A stretch of DNA of 33,618 bases, from NCBI GenBank assembly GCA_017475035.1, contig JAFVGK010000001.1, positions 1-33,618 on the forward strand. Direction: 5' to 3'. The stretch's first letter is position 1; each line of letters starts with the position of its first letter. Source of the stretch: Blautia sp. (lineage in GTDB: Bacteria > Bacillota > Clostridia > Lachnospirales > Lachnospiraceae). Below are positions 7,460 to 33,594 of the stretch, piece by piece. The notes beneath the pieces were generated by a model, which was given only the letters and a program-made list of their open reading frames with translations, was not told the DNA's origin and did no database searches. Position numbers and translations under genes: made by a program.

Positions 7460-8059
7460 ATGAATATAGTCTGCCTGGACCTGGAAGGGGTCCTTGTTCC
7501 GGAAATCTGGATCGCCTTCTCGAAAGAAAGCGGGATTCCTGAGCTGAAGCGTACAACGAGGGATGAGCCTGACTATGATAAGCTGATGAAATGGCGGCTG
7601 GGAATCTTAAAAGAGCATTCGTTGGGATTGAAAGAGATACAGGAAACCATCGCGAAAATCGACCCTCTCCCGGGAGCGAAGGAATTTCTTGACGAGCTGC
7701 GCAGTATCACGCAGGTACTTATCCTCAGCGATACCTTTACACAATTTGCCGGTCCCTTGATGAAAAAGCTCGGTTATCCGACGCTGTTCTGCAATGAACT
7801 GATCGTTGCCCCGAACGGTGAAATTACCGGCTATAAAATGCGCATCGCCAATTCCAAGCTCAGCACCGTCAAAGCACTGCAGTCCGTAGGCTTTGAAACC
7901 ATCGCGGCCGGCGACAGTTATAATGATCTGGGCATGATCCGTGCCGGAAAAAAGGGATTTTTGTTTAAGAGCACTGATCAGATCAAGGCGGATAATCCGG
8001 ATCTGGAAGCCTACGAGGATTTTCCCGAATTCCTTGCCGCAATTAAAAAGGCTCTGTGA
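7460..8059 (+). CDS. thrH: ThrH-type phosphoserine phosphatase / phosphoserine:homoserine phosphotransferase
   Basis: A 199-residue HAD-superfamily enzyme. The N-terminal motif DLEG (Asp7, Glu9) replaces the usual DxDG and is diagnostic for ThrH. The following VLVPEIWIAF, the ILSDT motif and the GDSYND motif also fit the known Pseudomonas ThrH very well along the whole length. Known family members dephosphorylate phosphoserine and can pass the phosphate to homoserine, linking serine and threonine synthesis. I chose the ATG at 7460, preceded by GGAAAGGGG, over an upstream in-frame codon at 7427 that would overlap copA. It lies 25 bases after copA and its stop overlaps the next gene's start, so the three are probably co-transcribed although the functions are unrelated. 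Confidence 0.88.
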   Translation: MNIVCLDLEGVLVPEIWIAFSKESGIPELKRTTRDEPDYDKLMKWRLGILKEHSLGLKEIQETIAKIDPLPGAKEFLDELRSITQVLILSDTFTQFAGPLMKKLGYPTLFCNELIVAPNGEITGYKMRIANSKLSTVKALQSVGFETIAAGDSYNDLGMIRAGKKGFLFKSTDQIKADNPDLEAYEDFPEFLAAIKKAL

Positions 8060-8739
8060 TGTGTATTCCGAAAGAAACAATCAGGCTGCTTCATCGCGAG
8101 CCGGACATTTACGTCATGGATGTCGGCATTCTGGAAGACCGGACGATCTTTGACAAAGCCCTGGAGCAGGTTTCCGCCTACAGGAGGAAAAAGGTGCTGG
8201 CGTTCAGGTTTTCTTCTTCTAGGATATTAAGCCTGGGAGCAGGTATTCTCATGGAAGAAGCGCTTTCCCGGCGGGGCATGCACGAAAACCAGATGGAATA
8301 CCGCCTGGGGCCCAATGAAAAACCCTACTTTGCCAATGCGCCTTCTCTTTTCTTTAATGCTTCACACTCCGGAAAGATGGCTATGCTAGGAATTTCCGAT
8401 CAGGAGATAGGGTGCGATATCGAAATCATCGGTAAAGATAATATGAACATCGCGGAACATTTTTATCATCCGGATGAACTGCGTTATCTGCAGATGTTTC
8501 AGGACAAGGAAGAGCAGAAAAGAGAATTCTACCGGCTGTGGACTCTTAAGGAAAGCTATGTGAAGGTTACCGGGAAGGGGTTGTCGGAGGAATTCTCAGG
8601 ATTCTGCATAGACTGCAGAGGAGAGCAGATTGTGGTAAGAGATGCAGGAGGGGAGAAGCTTCCTTATAGTTTCGGTATGCTTGAGCTGGAGGGATATGCG
8701 GCCGCCTGGTGCAGATGTAATAACAATTCAGGTGTTTAA
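8059..8739 (+). CDS. Sfp-type 4'-phosphopantetheinyl transferase
   Basis: About 226 residues. Family signatures are the FNASHSGKMAM block, GCDIE (Mg-binding Asp and Glu) and WTLKESYVKVTGKGL, the W-x-x-K-E-[SA]-x-x-K box. The enzyme transfers the 4'-phosphopantetheine arm of CoA to a Ser of carrier proteins. The Sfp class usually serves peptide or polyketide synthases, and no such synthase is in this window, so it may instead or also activate the fatty-acid carrier protein. The start is either GTG 8056 or ATG 8059. I favour ATG because it overlaps the thrH stop as TGATG with AAAAGG seven bases ahead. A copy of the dispersed structured element begins one base after the stop. Confidence 0.88.
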   Translation: MCIPKETIRLLHREPDIYVMDVGILEDRTIFDKALEQVSAYRRKKVLAFRFSSSRILSLGAGILMEEALSRRGMHENQMEYRLGPNEKPYFANAPSLFFNASHSGKMAMLGISDQEIGCDIEIIGKDNMNIAEHFYHPDELRYLQMFQDKEEQKREFYRLWTLKESYVKVTGKGLSEEFSGFCIDCRGEQIVVRDAGGEKLPYSFGMLELEGYAAAWCRCNNNSGV

Positions 8740-8740
8740 T

Positions 8741-8921
8741 CGGTAACTTGACGCTCGGCTTCAGGGTTTGCACAGGCTCCCGGATGGATGTCACATTCGC
8801 TCAACCGAAAAATAACAGCCGAGCCATCTCCCGTGGGAGATTAAAGGTCTGAAATGTCTCCGGAAAAGCACCGGAGCCACCTCAGACCTCAAGTCTCCCA
8901 TCGGTTTCAGTCTCGTCAATT
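8741..8921 (+). repeat. Dispersed structured intergenic element, copy A
   Basis: These 181 bases are repeated, with many scattered differences, at 22086-22264. The fold suggested by eye has an outer stem TTGAC (8748-8752) with GTCAA (8915-8919). Inside is an eight-pair stem GCTCGGCT (8753-8760) with AGCCGAGC (8817-8824). A long three-part hairpin follows: GGGAGA (8835-8840) with TCTCCC (8894-8899), GGTCTGA (8846-8852) with TCAGACC (8882-8888) and CTCCGG (8858-8863) with CCGGAG (8871-8876). No open frame is conserved between copies. It sits directly after a stop codon, with no U-run at its end. I do not recognise it as a named RNA family. Confidence 0.7.
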
Positions 8922-9090
8922 AATTTTCGAATGCATCGCTCATTGTGACATCGATCCGTCCGCCTGATTAAAGATGTGAGCCGAGCTGGCAGTGAGAATA
9001 ATTATTTTAATCTGAAATTCCCTATAGTTATCGCAGAAAAACCGGCCTATAATGTAACGCAAATTAAATGAGAAAAAAGAAAAAAAGTAC
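8922..9090 (+). other. AT-rich intergenic stretch before the ribosomal promoter
   Basis: No gene is seen here. It holds a TATAAT-like word near 9050 without a good -35 partner and a long purine run (9068-9086) just ahead of the promoter at 9091. Confidence 0.4.
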
Positions 9091-9119
9091 TTGCAATCTG
9101 CAGACCAACGTGTTATAGT
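9091..9119 (+). promoter_or_regulatory. Sigma-A type promoter of the alpha ribosomal operon
   Basis: TTGCAA (9091-9096), a 17-base spacer and TATAGT (9114-9119), preceded by an A-rich tract that could act as an UP element. Transcription would start near 9126, leaving a leader of about 115 bases before rpmJ. That leader contains CGGACATA twice (near 9184 and 9221). Confidence 0.7.
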
Positions 9120-9241
9120 AACATTTGGTCTGCATTTTTGGTGTGAAAGTGCGCCCAGCAACCCGCCTGCATTCCTTTTTGCCCGGACATAGGGGCGGAA
9201 AAGATGAGGTACGTTTCACTCGGACATAAGGAGGTACTCTC

Positions 9242-9355
9242 ATGAAGGTTCGATCATCTGTAAAACCGATCTGCGAAAAATGCAAGGTCATCAAGAGAAA
9301 AGGTGCGATCAGGATTATCTGTGAAAATCCGAAGCACAAACAGCGCCAGGGCTGA
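9242..9355 (+). CDS. rpmJ: Ribosomal protein L36 (bL36)
   Basis: Thirty-seven residues, [20 protein letters not shown] at the start, with the zinc ligands C-x2-C, C and H of the Cys-containing form. It is full length for the family. AAGGAGG lies seven bases upstream. It is a late-assembling large-subunit protein. In most Firmicutes infA directly precedes rpmJ; here a promoter and a non-ribosomal operon do. The gap to rpsM is unusually long. Confidence 0.95.
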
Positions 9356-9675
9356 TTTACCTGGAAAAAGCGGCTGAAAGCATGTATTGCCTAATACCGG
9401 AACAATGGAGCGGAAGACCCACTTCATGAGGCAGTGCCGGCCGGAGTCATACGGCCGCTATAGGAGAGACGACGGATCAGCAGTATAGAATCCGCGTCAG
9501 GATCCTGATGTTCCGGAAAGGTCGGAAGAAATTCCGGCTGGGTGTATACCGAGACACCTCAATTAGGAAAAAAGGAAGGCTTCGAAAAAGATGCATCCCA
9601 TTTCACCTTGCGCTGCCGCAAGTGATGTACGTTTCGAAAGCGTTCCGGAGATTATTTAGACGGAGGATACAGTAC
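9356..9675 (+). other. Long hairpin-rich spacer between rpmJ and rpsM
   Basis: Adjacent genes of this operon are normally separated by a few tens of bases, but here 320 bases separate two of them. I see several self-complementary blocks: CGGCCG at 9438-9443 with 9452-9457, the perfect palindrome TCAGGATCCTGA at 9497-9508, GGTGTATACC near 9540, and CTTGCG/CGCAAG around a four-base loop at 9607-9622. The rpsM frame stays open upstream to 9508, but that part is Arg/Lys-rich and lacks family similarity. In other bacteria ribosomal protein S4 represses this operon by binding a pseudoknot in front of rpsM; a similar control site here is an inference. Confidence 0.45.
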
Positions 9676-21143: not shown

Positions 21144-22073
21144 ATGGGGGATAAGAAAGACGTCATCAATCGGACTGTAAAAGCGTTGACGAAGCATTAT
21201 CAGGAAGAGGAGCTTTTCATGGCTAAGAGCGGGCGGAGCCTGCCCAGCAGAGATGAGGTCATAGGAGTCATAAAGGATTTGCGTGCCCTGGTCTTTCCCG
21301 GATATTTTGGGAGTGACGCTTCCGCTGTGATGTTCCCGGAGTATTTTGCGGGCTATCGATTGAATGATCTTTTCGGGCGTCTGGAAAAAGAAATACGGAT
21401 TGCCTTTCTTTATTATTCCCAGGAGCCCGAGCGGGAGGATGAACATGCAAACGATGTGACATGCCGTTTTTTTGAGGCTTTGCCTTCTGTTCAGGAGCTT
21501 CTGCTGAAGGATGTGCAGGCCGGGTTTGACGGGGATCCTGCCGCCAAGAGCAAGGAGGAGATTATCTTTTCCTATCCGGGTCTGTACGCGATCTATGTTT
21601 ACCGCCTTGCGCATCTCCTTTATCTGGACAAAGTGCCCTTTATTCCAAGGATCATGACGGAACACGCTCACAGCCGTACCGGAATTGATATTAATCCCGG
21701 CGCGACGATCGGGGAGTATTTCTTCATTGATCATGGGACAGGCGTTGTTATCGGTGAGACCACGACGATCGGGAAGAACGTGAAGCTGTACCAGGGGGTT
21801 ACTCTTGGCGCGCTTTCTACGAGGATGGGGCAGGCTCTGGCGAATGTGAAGCGGCATCCGACCATCGAGGATAATGTGACGATTTATTCGAATTCTACGG
21901 TTCTTGGCGGGGATACCGTGATCGGGGCAGGCTCGATTATTGCAGGTAATACGTTTATTACCGAATCTGTTGACGCGAATACCAAGGTCAGCACGAAGAA
22001 TCCGGAGCTTGTCAAGAAGACGCCAAGGAAAGAGAAGCAGGAAGGGGAGACGGTGCTGTATTGGGATATCTGA
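21144..22073 (+). CDS. cysE: Serine O-acetyltransferase
   Basis: It has 309 residues. The C-terminal left-handed beta helix is clear from hexapeptide repeats, with the family blocks [27 protein letters not shown] and LYQGVTLGA. The catalytic His and Asp are in FFIDHGTG. The N-terminal 180 residues are helical, as in the longer SAT variant (EpsC-like) of clostridia and plants. The enzyme makes O-acetylserine from serine and acetyl-CoA for cysteine synthesis. The ATG follows GGGGG at a normal distance. The structured leader before it could sense cysteine supply, but that is inference. A copy of the dispersed element starts 12 bases after the stop. Confidence 0.93.
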
Positions 22074-22085
22074 AGCACGACAGTT

Positions 22086-22264
22086 CGATAACCTGACGCT
22101 CGGCTTCGGGTGCTGCACCGGCTGCCGGATCGATGTCACATTCGCTCAGCCGAAAAATAACAGCCGAGCCATCTCCCGTGGGAGACTAAAGGTCCGAGGC
22201 GTCTCCGGAAGAGCCGGAGCTGCCTCAGGGCTTTAATCTCCCATCGGTTTCTGTCTCGTCAATT
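22086..22264 (+). repeat. Dispersed structured intergenic element, copy B
   Basis: This is the second copy of the element at 8741-8921, same orientation, about 179 bases. It keeps TGACG/CGTCA as outer stem, CTCGGCT with AGCCGAG, and the GGGAGA/TCTCCC - CTCCGG/CCGGAG hairpin. Where copy A pairs GGTCTGA with TCAGACC, copy B pairs GAGGC (22196-22200) with GCCTC (22222-22226). The middle of the hairpin thus stays paired with different bases. Both copies lie directly 3' of a gene and upstream of a TTGCAA-type promoter. Confidence 0.7.
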
Positions 22265-22315: not shown

Positions 22316-22386
22316 GCGGATATAGTTCATTGGTAGAATATCAGCTTCCCAAGCTGAGGAGGCGGGTTCGATTCCCGTTATCCGCT
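22316..22386 (+). tRNA. tRNA-Gly(CCC)
   Basis: The full cloverleaf is readable. Acceptor GCGGATA/TATCCGC, D stem GTTC/GAAT (first pair G-U) with ATTGGTA loop, anticodon stem TCAGC/GCTGA with loop TTCCCAA (anticodon CCC at 22348-22350), T stem GCGGG/CCCGT with TTCGATT, and discriminator U. The 3' CCA is not encoded. It has its own promoter and terminator. Confidence 0.96.
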
Positions 22387-27153: not shown

Positions 27154-27214
27154 GAGTCAGGGGGACAGGTTCCTTGACTCATTACTTGAGTCATGGAACC
27201 TGTCCCCCTGACTC
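27154..27214. repeat. 27-base inverted repeat directly after the glycosyltransferase stop
   Basis: Two 27-base arms (27154-27180 and 27188-27214) pair at 26 positions around a seven-base AT loop. Each arm contains GGGGGACAGGTTCC or its complement. The left arm starts right after the TGA. The pattern GGGGACAGGTTC is familiar to me from palindromic intergenic repeats in diverse bacteria. It can act as a strong transcript-end hairpin although no U-run follows. Confidence 0.7.
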
Positions 27215-28444: not shown

Positions 28445-29260
28445 GTGGTAAGCAGATTTGATTTGATAGAAACCTTTACAGATACCCGAAAGAAAATAAA
28501 AGAAAATTCAAGACTGTCAGAGCTGACTTTGCAGATGCAGGCAGGGACAATGTTGTACCTGAGGGGATATAAAGCAATAAATCCTTCCGTAAAAAGTACG
28601 ATTCTCGATGTGACGGTGCTGGAGGATACGACCTTTCATGCCTCTTCCTTATATGCAGGGAACGCAGATAAGGTTGCAGTTTTGAATTTTGCAAATGCAT
28701 ATACTCCGGGCGGCAGTGTGTCAGAGGGTGTGATGGCGCAGGAAGAGTGCCTGTGCAGGAGCAGTAACCTTTATGCCTCACTGACCATTCCTTATCTGCT
28801 GAAAAATTATTATAAATGGAATGCGAAGAATACCGGAGAAATGGGTACAGATGCTGTGATCTACTCTCCGCAAGTCACCGTATTCAAGACAGATGATGAA
28901 CGGCCGGAGAGTTTAAAAGAATGGTTTCAGGTGGATGTGATTTCCTGTGCAGCTCCGTATTATAATCAAAACAGGAAAAAACCTGTTTCACCTGAAAAGC
29001 TCAGAGAGGTGTTTTCTGACCGGATTAGGAACATCCTCGAAGTCGCAGCTGCAAATGACGCAGATATCCTTGTTTTGGGAGCTTTTGGATGTGGAGCATT
29101 CAACAATCCACCTGATCTTGTGGCAGAAGTATTTCATCAATTGCTGGAATATCCGGGCTACGGAAAATACTTTAAAAAAATTATCTTTGCCATTAAAGGC
29201 AGGGATGCAGATAACCCGAACCTGTCTGCATTTCAGAATGTTTTCTCAAGAAAAGGTTGA
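28445..29260 (+). CDS. Bacterial poly(ADP-ribose) glycohydrolase-like (macro-fold) protein
   Basis: It has 271 residues. The diagnostic loop PGGSVSEGVMAQEECLCR (Gly89-Gly90, Gln99-Glu100-Glu101) is the GG-x(6-8)-QEE signature of the microbial PARG type, with Glu101 as the expected catalytic acid. VAVLNFANAYTPGG before it and LVLGAFGCGAFNNPP after it are also family blocks. Such enzymes release ADP-ribose from modified macromolecules or bind it. The start is GTG 28445 with GAGGAG ten bases ahead. It has no linked ADP-ribosyltransferase in the window. Bases 28682-28777, including the catalytic loop, are repeated without a difference in a gene fragment 2.2 kb downstream. Confidence 0.85.
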   Translation: MVSRFDLIETFTDTRKKIKENSRLSELTLQMQAGTMLYLRGYKAINPSVKSTILDVTVLEDTTFHASSLYAGNADKVAVLNFANAYTPGGSVSEGVMAQEECLCRSSNLYASLTIPYLLKNYYKWNAKNTGEMGTDAVIYSPQVTVFKTDDERPESLKEWFQVDVISCAAPYYNQNRKKPVSPEKLREVFSDRIRNILEVAAANDADILVLGAFGCGAFNNPPDLVAEVFHQLLEYPGYGKYFKKIIFAIKGRDADNPNLSAFQNVFSRKG

Positions 29261-29463: not shown

Positions 29464-30885
29464 GTGAAAAAAATATTGTTGTTAATAGTTGTAATAGTTC
29501 TTGGATACAGCGTGAGCGTATACCCGTTGCAGTGGGGGGAATTTATTTCCGGAGACTATAAATTCACCCTTCTTGATGACGGGACGGCAGAGATAAAGAA
29601 TTATAATCAATATAATAAAGATGAGGAGAATCTGGAAATCCCTGAGACGATAGACGGTTATGTGGTGACCAGTATCGGCAGGGGGGCATTTTCTTCATGT
29701 TATGGACTGAAGAGCATCACATTGCCGGAGGGAATAACGAACATTGGGGAAGGGGCATTCTGTGATTGTATAAATCTGAAAAACATCACATTACCGGAGG
29801 GAGTAACGAGCATTGGGAAAGAAGCATTTTCCGGATGCGCTAGGTTAAGCAGCATTGTGTTGCCGGATACTGTAAAGGATATAAGTTCCAATCCATTTAT
29901 TGCATGCTTTTCATTGGAACAGGTTACCGTATCCACTGATCATCCTGAGCTGGAGGTAATGGATGGACTGTTATACGATAAGCAGGGAAAAAGGTTGATC
30001 TTCTGCCCACAGTCGAAACAGCAAGTGGAAATACCTGAAGGAGTACAGATAATTGGCGACAGCGCATTTTTCGGATGTGAAAGCCTGAGCAGCATCACAT
30101 TGCCGGAGGGAGTAACCTGTATAGGGGATAAGGCATTCTTCAATTGTAAGAATCTAAGTAATATCACGTTGCCGGATAGTGCAGCAAACATCGATTCCAA
30201 TCCCTTTTTACGCTGCGGCTCACTGGAGCAGGTTGCCGTTTCTTCTGATCATCCCGTGCTGGAGGTAATAGACGGACTTTTATACCATAAATCGGATAAG
30301 AGGCTGATCTTCTGCCCACAGTCGAAACAGCAGGTAGAAATACCTGAAGGAATACAGAAAATAGGGGATTCTGCATTTGACTGTTGCTATCATCTAAGCA
30401 GCATCACATTACCAGATGGCGTGACAAGTATAGGGGATTCTGCGTTTTCATCTTGTATCAGTTTAAGCAGCATCACGCTGCCAGAGGGCGTGACGAGCAT
30501 CGGGGATCGGGCGTTTTCCAGTTGTACGAACCTAAACAGCATCACGCTGCCAGAAGGGTTGACAAGCATCGGGGATTGGGCATTTTTCAATTGTTATGGC
30601 TTAAGCAGCATCGCGCTGAGGGAAGGGTTAACAAGCATCGGGAAAAAGGCTTTTTTCCATAGTGGTTGTCTGAGCATCATGTTGCCCGAAGGCGTAACCT
30701 ATATCGGGGATTCTGCTTTTTCTGAGTGTATAAACCTGACTGGCATTACCATACCGGAAAGCATAATCCATATCGGGGAAGATGCATTCACAGGCAACCC
30801 CAACCTGATCATCACCGTTACCAGGGCCTCTTATGCCGCAAAGTATTGCTCAATGAATGGATTTAATTACATATATGCGGATTGA
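29464..30885 (+). CDS. BspA-like leucine-rich-repeat surface protein
   Basis: It has 473 residues. The N-terminal 20 residues form a hydrophobic signal or anchor. From residue 57 on, about 15 repeats of 22-23 residues of the LRR_5 type follow, each near [IV]-T-L-P-E-G-[VIL]-T-x-I-G-x-x-A-F-x-x-C-x-x-L-x-S. A block of about 103 residues (131-233) recurs at 234-336, including the unusual insert DGLLY-x-K-x2-KRLIFCPQSKQQVEIPEG. It has been duplicated within the gene. No wall anchor is seen. Such proteins bind host or bacterial surfaces in gut and oral species. GTG start with GGAGG seven bases before. It lies between the two copies of the PARG-gene segment. Confidence 0.88.
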   Translation: MKKILLLIVVIVLGYSVSVYPLQWGEFISGDYKFTLLDDGTAEIKNYNQYNKDEENLEIPETIDGYVVTSIGRGAFSSCYGLKSITLPEGITNIGEGAFCDCINLKNITLPEGVTSIGKEAFSGCARLSSIVLPDTVKDISSNPFIACFSLEQVTVSTDHPELEVMDGLLYDKQGKRLIFCPQSKQQVEIPEGVQIIGDSAFFGCESLSSITLPEGVTCIGDKAFFNCKNLSNITLPDSAANIDSNPFLRCGSLEQVAVSSDHPVLEVIDGLLYHKSDKRLIFCPQSKQQVEIPEGIQKIGDSAFDCCYHLSSITLPDGVTSIGDSAFSSCISLSSITLPEGVTSIGDRAFSSCTNLNSITLPEGLTSIGDWAFFNCYGLSSIALREGLTSIGKKAFFHSGCLSIMLPEGVTYIGDSAFSECINLTGITIPESIIHIGEDAFTGNPNLIITVTRASYAAKYCSMNGFNYIYAD

Positions 30886-30929: not shown

Positions 30930-31043
30930 GTACTGGCCTTGAATTTTGCAAATGCATATACTCCGGGCGGCAGTGTGTCAGAGGGTGTGATGGCGCAGGA
31001 AGAGTGCCTGTGCAGGAGCAGTAACCTTTATGCCGCACTGACC
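30930..31043 (+). pseudogene. Fragment of a PARG-like gene
   Basis: Bases 30939-31034 are identical to 28682-28777 of the PARG-like gene, and after one mismatch eight more bases agree (to 31043). The translation LNFANAYTPGGSVSEGVMAQ and following EECLCRSSNLYA is the catalytic loop. The sequence on both sides is unrelated and the frame ends within 90 bases, so no functional enzyme can be made. The perfect identity shows a recent duplication or gene conversion. Confidence 0.8.
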
Positions 31044-33324: not shown

Positions 33325-33391
33325 GAGAAATTAATTTTTTCCGGTCTTCTGCTTCATGGGTGGGTGAAGTACTCGGAATATGTATGATTCA

Positions 33392-33449
33392 GGCGACAAA
33401 AGGTCATGCAAAAATGAGCTCGCTCATTTTTGCATGACCTTTTGTCGCC
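33392..33449. repeat. 58-base near-perfect palindrome downstream of vapC
   Basis: Two perfect 28-base arms (33392-33419 and 33422-33449) are separated by two bases. Each arm carries AAAAATGAGC or its complement at the inner end and GGCGAC at the outer end. The T-rich right arm could end transcripts, but the size and lack of a loop are more like a transposon or cruciform-forming repeat. The interval 33325-33391 holds no gene. Confidence 0.7.
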
Positions 33450-33540
33450 CACAGACACGAGGAAGTAGCCATTTTGTACTATTTATACTTGACTTTGCAA
33501 ATCTTTCTGTGCAAAATGAGCGGATTCCGAGTGGCTGTAG

Positions 33541-33573
33541 GTTGCTGCATGCCAGTGGCATGCGTTTAGCAAC
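33541..33573. repeat. Hairpin at the start of a possible repeat cut by the window edge
   Basis: GTTGC-TG-CATGCCA is inverted after one base as TGGCATG-CGTTTA-GCAAC. The flanking GC-rich sequence runs to the end of the window without a gene. Confidence 0.5.
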
Positions 33574-33594
33574 GACCGAGCCGGGAGGCGAGAC

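Follow-up and report, generated by a model that had tools for sequence, protein, structure and literature searches.

In the Bacillus cereus group, the bcr repeats are described as dispersed elements of 100 to 400 bp that are restricted to one clade, bear features of mobile elements and, in the case of bcr1, reach tens of copies (PMC6542083); Bcr1 also appears, at 167 bp, among described stem-loop families (PMC2267715). For MITEs, the direct repeats are reported to wane with age (PMC10969869), and CGTC-tagged REPs have been described that lack a dedicated transposase (PMC3733652). Template switching between inverted arms has been argued both to create and to maintain hairpins (PMC8794818). Here, we compare with these systems a folded element in the genome of a Blautia sp. 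(G000; 5.08 Mb in 200 contigs, completeness 93.6%, contamination 5.0%).

The window, a 33,618-nucleotide stretch of contig JAFVGK010000001.1, holds two sequences, at 8741 to 8921 (copy A) and 22086 to 22264 (copy B), that a sequence-only reading had recognized as one family on the plus strand, and they are indeed 86% identical (E = 4.5e-54). That observation is largely right, but it drew the element too short and the copies too few. We propose, at a probability of about 0.7, that A and B are members of a new dispersed, non-autonomous fold-back (MITE/bcr1-like) DNA repeat family of Blautia.

A DNA search of the G000 genome with the 181-base copy A as the query returned 63 matches, 27 of them nearly full-query (A and B included) rather than just two; part of the remaining partial matches are opposite-strand echoes of palindromic copies. 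When the 27 copies were aligned with their flanks, conservation ran well beyond the earlier-noted end in 26, copy B being the exception, and the original interval proved to cover only ∼70% of the element. The full unit is ∼245 to 265 nt long and comprises a left arm of 77 nt (L), a center of 88 nt (C), and a right arm of ∼78 nt (R). The center is itself palindromic and R repeats L in inverted orientation, so that one strand can fold as a single giant hairpin; in many clusters, the nhmmer profile of L also matches R on the opposite strand, and that of R matches L. The element begins with TGACG and ends with CTGTRTAGTGAAAG. Conservation is sharp from the left-end TGACG (CGTCA on the other strand), 5′ of which lies a weak GATAAC-like stretch, and it fades ∼11 nt past CCGAGCTG on the right, where an extra, weakly conserved tail, TGTRTAGTGAAAG, has no mirror at the left end. 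The word GCCGAGC recurs as a direct repeat, once at the end of L and once at the end of R.

All modules of copies A and B lie on the plus strand. In copy A, the left arm (TGACGCTCGGCTT ... GGATGGATGTCACA ... AACAGCCGAGCC) occupies 8749 to 8825 (nhmmer profile, E 6.3e-25), the center hairpin occupies 8826 to 8915 (nhmmer, E 1e-27, and covariation), and the right arm, the inverted L copy, occupies 8919 to 8993 (nhmmer, E 1.7e-21); the right arm was refound at 8924 to 8988 when the own genome was searched with the right arm of another copy, and it makes copy A complete as one giant hairpin. Copy B has a left arm at 22094 to 22170 (nhmmer, E 1e-23) and a center hairpin at 22171 to 22258 (nhmmer, E 1.2e-25, and sequence). 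No right-arm match was found by nhmmer or in the sequence 3′ of this center, where a promoter stands instead, directly ahead of a tRNA gene outside the element (22316 to 22386, plus strand; Rfam RF00005, 66.9 bits) that we identify as tRNA-Gly(TCC) from its place in relatives and, by eye, its anticodon loop. Calculated fold energies of −70.2 (copy A) and −76.9 kcal/mol (copy B) indicate stable structures.

The genes 5′ of the two copies also lie outside the element: a 4′-phosphopantetheinyl transferase superfamily gene precedes copy A (8056 to 8739, plus strand; Pfam PF01648, E 3.5e-17), and a hexapeptide transferase gene, which we take to be serine-acetyltransferase-like, precedes copy B (21144 to 22073, plus strand; Pfam PF00132, E 3.2e-11). 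An S4-Clostridia leader (window 9516 to 9567) lies ∼0.5 kb 3′ of copy A, and an S10-Clostridia leader (L037:2359-2443) lies ∼100 nt from the cluster on contig C105, each with a ribosomal-protein operon nearby.

Mapping with nhmmer profiles over 40 stretches, 39 around search matches plus the window, placed at least 42 clusters on 24 contigs, with 27 LCR, 11 LR, 5 LC, 17 solo L, and 3 solo C forms. As the clusters were mapped solely around search matches, and 40 of the 58 candidates in the own-genome DNA search were scored, the genome may contain more copies. The modules of each cluster lie on one strand and in the order L-C-R in all 42 clusters, 18 of which contain more than one L, two LCR-LCR-L arrays included. 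Every R adjoins an L, and no L and R were seen apart around a gene in the mapped stretches. By eye, 5 of the 17 solo L forms run straight into right-end sequence through a GCCGAGC-like junction, ending CAGCC(A/G)GGCTG- or CAGCCGAGCTG-like, which is the junction expected for deletion between the GCCGAGC repeats; such a deletion would explain these forms. Five other solo L forms run, again by eye, into a truncated center. Pairwise identity among 26 of the 27 LCR elements (alignment A3; the C179 copy, with its truncated center, was omitted) ranges from 82 to 98% with a median of 88%, a spread that points to insertions of different ages.

Some copies depart further from the plan. Two decayed copies, on contigs C139 and C152, consist of the center only, while a copy on contig C118 (L036:2062-2307) combines the usual arms with an unrelated yet again palindromic center. 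Tandem units of ∼37 nt (TGACGCCCGGATAGAGTGCAGGGTCT...) that carry TTGACGC, the start word of the left arm, lie directly 5′ of a C118 copy at L043 (before 2187), as judged by eye.

The scatter of the element is intergenic: 3 of the 42 clusters overlap a called open reading frame (ORF) by more than 30 nt, two through short calls inside the cluster and one over a weak solo L. The 26 copies contain no long ORF (longest stop-free stretch, 39 to 80 codons per copy) and no transposase gene, but many of them share a stop-free stretch of 41 to 49 codons in one plus-strand frame, which might encode a short peptide.

The kept fold on which the family was first recognized is real, and the best-supported part of it is a long-range helix between L and R that had been overlooked. 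Across the 26 complete copies, the giant hairpin comprises 68 pairs, and 93.3% of its cells are paired. Both sides have changed in 16 of these pairs, against 4.2 in shuffles, and none of 500 shuffles reached this value. The L-R helix alone has both-side changes in 11 of 21 pairs (0/500 shuffles as high). In a separate alignment of 18 sequences from three genomes (A2), 14 of 32 pairs have both-side changes, all in the center helix (0/500); further pair types, one of five measures on this alignment, did not exceed shuffles (146/500). Alignment A2 combined 10 of the 27 near-full G000 copies, picked for diversity, with 6 sequences from G061, 1 from G038, and the diverged G000 copy on C139, leaving aside the C152 copy and a G061 subfamily, II, found later. 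Because the copies share ancestry and the cells do not represent independent events, these shuffle results should not be read as probabilities. The outer TGAC/GTCA and CTCGGCT/AGCCGAG stems of the original description had no pair changed on both sides in the 26 copies and were rejected as covarying stems. The proposed compensatory switch between GGTCTGA/TCAGACC (copy A) and GAGGC/GCCTC (copy B) compares positions that overlap but are not identical; compensatory changes do appear with more copies.

These results bear on whether the element is a structured noncoding RNA or 3′-end element, transcribed from the element's plus strand and kept for its fold, as had been suggested from copies A and B. 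In favor of such an RNA are the covariation of the center across genomes and of the L-R arms, a hairpin-tip sequence common to G000, G038, and G061 subfamily I, and the position of both A and B after same-strand stop codons (ending at 8739 and 22073). That position is not general, however; the upstream gene lies on the same strand as the element in 20 clusters and on the opposite strand in 22 (p 0.88), with neighboring genes called by a simple hexamer score that misses short genes (e.g., a probable rpmJ at 9242, by eye) and a downstream gene lacking in the sequence examined for 3 of the 42 clusters. Under RNA selection on the plus strand, G.T pairs are expected to be better tolerated than A.C pairs. 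Among pairs with a Watson-Crick consensus, G.T occurred in 12 columns (21 cells) and A.C occurred in 13 (28 cells), and over all 68 pairs A.C (41 cells) outnumbered G.T (21 cells); G.T being no commoner than A.C, no RNA strand is favored. Nor was a terminator-like site seen in window 8700 to 9300, and the TTGCAA-type promoter thought to follow the element turned out not to be linked to it: TTGCAA occurs within 300 nt downstream of 5 and upstream of 4 of the 42 clusters, and a version with a −10-like box, a pattern that misses the TATAGT of copy A, was found downstream of 1 cluster and upstream of none. Rfam offered no family for the element at gathering score. Under permissive limits, a mir-6827 match coincided with the hairpin of the element itself in L011 and L016 but reached 25 to 27 bits, against a gathering score of 80, and was rejected, as was an sR7 match in L011 that lies outside the element. 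Together with the replacement of the tip in G061 subfamily II and of the whole center in one G000 copy, and with carriage by just 3 of 64 genus genomes, these findings leave the RNA interpretation possible but disfavored, and we regard it as unlikely. By its own terms, the sequence-only reading would be refuted by a lack of significant covariation, or by target duplications coupled with a lack of transcription; the copies do covary, and no target duplications turned up, so this test does not decide between the two views.

How the arms change in concert points elsewhere. The arms usually mismatch at three positions, where 10 of the 26 copies have exactly GGCTCCCG in L and CGTCCGCC in R, and most others are a base or two off these words. 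In three copies, adjacent-base changes have made R CGGGAGCC, the exact complement of L at the usual mismatch, and in one further copy L and R agree with each other through a different pair of sequences, GGCTGACG and CGTCAGCC. The three CGGGAGCC copies may share one event. Template switching between inverted arms is expected to leave block changes, and the changes that give exact arm complements suggest such switching in DNA, although selection for pairing could also yield them. Compensatory changes are thus present as an RNA would have them, yet template switching can also produce them. Covariation is usually a strong sign of functional RNA; here, because the arms covary without strand bias and in part change in blocks, a DNA-level explanation may be the better one.

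The element was sought in 64 genus genomes with a core model and was found in three, G000 itself, G038, and G061; a looser pattern identified the same three. A first DNA search of 60 genus genomes had found G000 and G038 only, missing G061. At the family level, G000 alone was matched among 397 genomes by the core model and by the pattern (1/397, compared with 4/397 for a reversed control pattern), and a second model, run on 150 family genomes, added nothing except a 30.5-bit match in G130 that, lacking palindromic arms by eye, was taken as chance. Fifty-nine candidates were scored per genus genome, and 9 and 25 were scored in the family searches under stricter filters, so diverged relatives may have been missed.

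G038 has one copy, ahead of a tRNA, with outer arms unlike those of G000 by eye. G061 has two subfamilies, both built on the G000 plan with largely different sequence: subfamily I shares the G000 tip on different arms, and subfamily II differs in tip and arms alike. By eye, most subfamily II copies nonetheless share G000 landmarks, namely, the ACGCC-GGGC start, CCCGAGCC, GTCTCGT, and the CCCGGCTG end. Within each of seven G061 copies tested, the arms match in inverted orientation at 74 to 98% over 36 to 103 nt; the other G061 copies, some cut by contig ends, fell outside this comparison. Phage and plasmid collections gave no match at E 1e-5 and viral contigs gave no exact match to the tip pattern; a tip-pattern match in Pannonibacter, of only 21 nt and 19 bits, was taken as chance. 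We found no description of the family in the literature searched, which was mainly open access.

Several other repeats occur in the window. An Rfam match to Clostridiales-1 RNA (33385 to 33583, 63.6 bits) contains a perfect 28-bp hairpin that may be another dispersed repeat. A Clostridiales-1-like word, TTTTGCATGACCTTTTGCCGCC, lies 3′ of an element copy close to the beginning of contig C143, a locus (L040) without a Clostridiales-1 match at gathering score. A near-perfect 28-bp palindrome, GAGTCAGGGGGACAGGTTCCTTGACTCA, lies at 27154 to 27214; the same word recurs, by eye, around several G061 element copies, making it a second small palindromic repeat across species. An ORF at 29464 to 30885 contains coding-like repeats (29686 to 30721; mostly 69-nt spacing, with eight copies of a 49-nt unit) that presumably resemble leucine-rich surface-protein repeats, and a 105-nt direct repeat, 99% identical, is found at 28682 to 28786 and, 2.3 kb apart, at 30939 to 31043.

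Evidence of insertion was sought at copy B and in the flanks. The hexapeptide transferase gene of copy B has a DNA match in 55 other genus genomes, and none of the three modules was present in any of the 29 loci built and examined, 16 of which contain the tRNA-Gly(TCC). Orthology was assigned by best match, identity at the gene is 73% in the best-scoring other genome, and contig ends truncate several loci, so these are not clean empty sites. A target-site duplication was not found in 19 clusters: the longest word shared by the two flanks averaged 6.05 nt, no different from the value for swapped flanks, and 255 of 500 shuffles scored at least as high. Such a duplication could have been lost with age.

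The absence of a duplication weighs against a classical MITE derived from a DDE-type insertion sequence, whose terminal inverted repeats would persist while age had worn away its target duplication, even though the inverted ends, the lack of a long ORF, the intergenic positions, the tens of copies, and a size near that of described examples (about 190 and 235 bp; PMC10969869) all agree with one. The tail TGTRTAGTGAAAG, unmirrored at the left, and the lack of any L and R apart around a gene in the 40 mapped stretches speak the same way, and we hold this origin to be very improbable. Consistent with the earlier judgment, no insertion sequence remnant was seen. The inverted pairs of one palindromic module and the tandem arrays also recall a BIME-like composite, with L as a REP and R as its inverted counterpart, mobilized by a tyrosine transposase of the RAYT/IS200 type, and the left end, with its conserved TGACG (read as CGTCA on the opposite strand), has a parallel in CGTC-tagged REPs (PMC3733652). 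However, the module is 77 nt long, compared with 20 to 40 bp for the REPs and 8 to 9 bp for the stems of CGTC REPs described in that source, and none of the 42 clusters departs from the fixed order and strand of the modules. A genome-wide search of G000 limited to Y1_Tnp returned a single contig-edge fragment, presumably IS200-like, followed by sequence unlike the element by eye; a complete gene could have been missed in a genome that is 93.6% complete. G061 has one Y1_Tnp, near a contig start, and G038 has none. No RAYT (Y1_Tnp) gene flanked by the element was found in G000, nor was an autonomous partner with the element's ends seen in the 40 mapped stretches or, for Y1_Tnp, genome-wide. An IS200/RAYT partner was therefore rejected, and a BIME of this kind seems to us about as improbable. 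A further alternative dispenses with a dedicated transposase: a self-maintaining DNA fold-back would become a single-stranded hairpin in replication, have one arm rewritten from the other and its tip rebuilt by snap-back copying, and spread between loci as a hairpin through host replication and repair proteins only. The different palindromic tips of G061 subfamily II and the C118 copy would be products of such rebuilding, and we consider this scheme a long shot, less probable than an RNA element and slightly more probable than either of the two transposon models.

The reading we prefer is that of a dispersed mobile palindrome, which fits the ∼40 sites, the tandem arrays, the deletion derivatives, the patchy distribution, and the absence from the 29 copy-B loci. 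Units would spread as DNA, non-autonomously and probably aided in trans by an enzyme. The matched arms may be kept, at least partly, by template switching in DNA replication, one arm being copied from the other through the hairpin, rather than only by selection on RNA. The copies look like bearers of a fold kept at the DNA level and not like a functional-RNA gene. As a counterpoint, selection on structure can also give covariation, and the tip is common to three genomes. Movement itself was not observed directly, and among the genomes compared there was no near strain to supply a clean empty site. The family shares two features with MITEs, inverted terminal repeats, in its L and R inverted copies, whose pairing is backed by covariation, and the lack of an internal transposase gene; as target duplication, a defining MITE feature, was tested and not found, we file the family as MITE-like, not as a MITE. 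It is a further clade-restricted repeat family, whose modules keep a fixed order while the palindromic tip can be exchanged, and it offers material for studying the persistence and spread of long palindromes in Firmicutes; it also carries a caution that RNA-discovery pipelines could count such repeats as noncoding RNAs.

Like bcr1 and other bcr repeats (PMC6542083), the element is dispersed in tens of copies within one clade and has mobile-element features, but it resides in an unrelated host. For bcr, mobility is tied to a TTTAT motif, and the portion of that source consulted mentions no L-C-R giant-hairpin plan. With QMITE2 of Coxiella, whose described features are a length of ∼190 bp, inverted ends, folding transcripts, and REP-like truncated copies, it shares a general likeness, but QMITE2 has inverted repeats of 23 to 29 bp and direct repeats of 7 to 9 bp, whereas the arms here are ∼77 nt and direct repeats were not found (PMC10969869). 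The Clostridiales-1 RNA (RF01699), also a long hairpin from Clostridiales (PMC2864571) and matched in the same window, differs from the element in sequence and structure, with no match between the two. GTAG- and CGTC-tagged REPs and their dimers offer palindromic modules, an unpaired tag, inverted pairs, and possible large hairpins, much as the element does, but REPs measure 20 to 40 bp and clusters are described as rare for CGTC REPs (PMC3733652), whereas the order and strand of the modules in this family are fixed.
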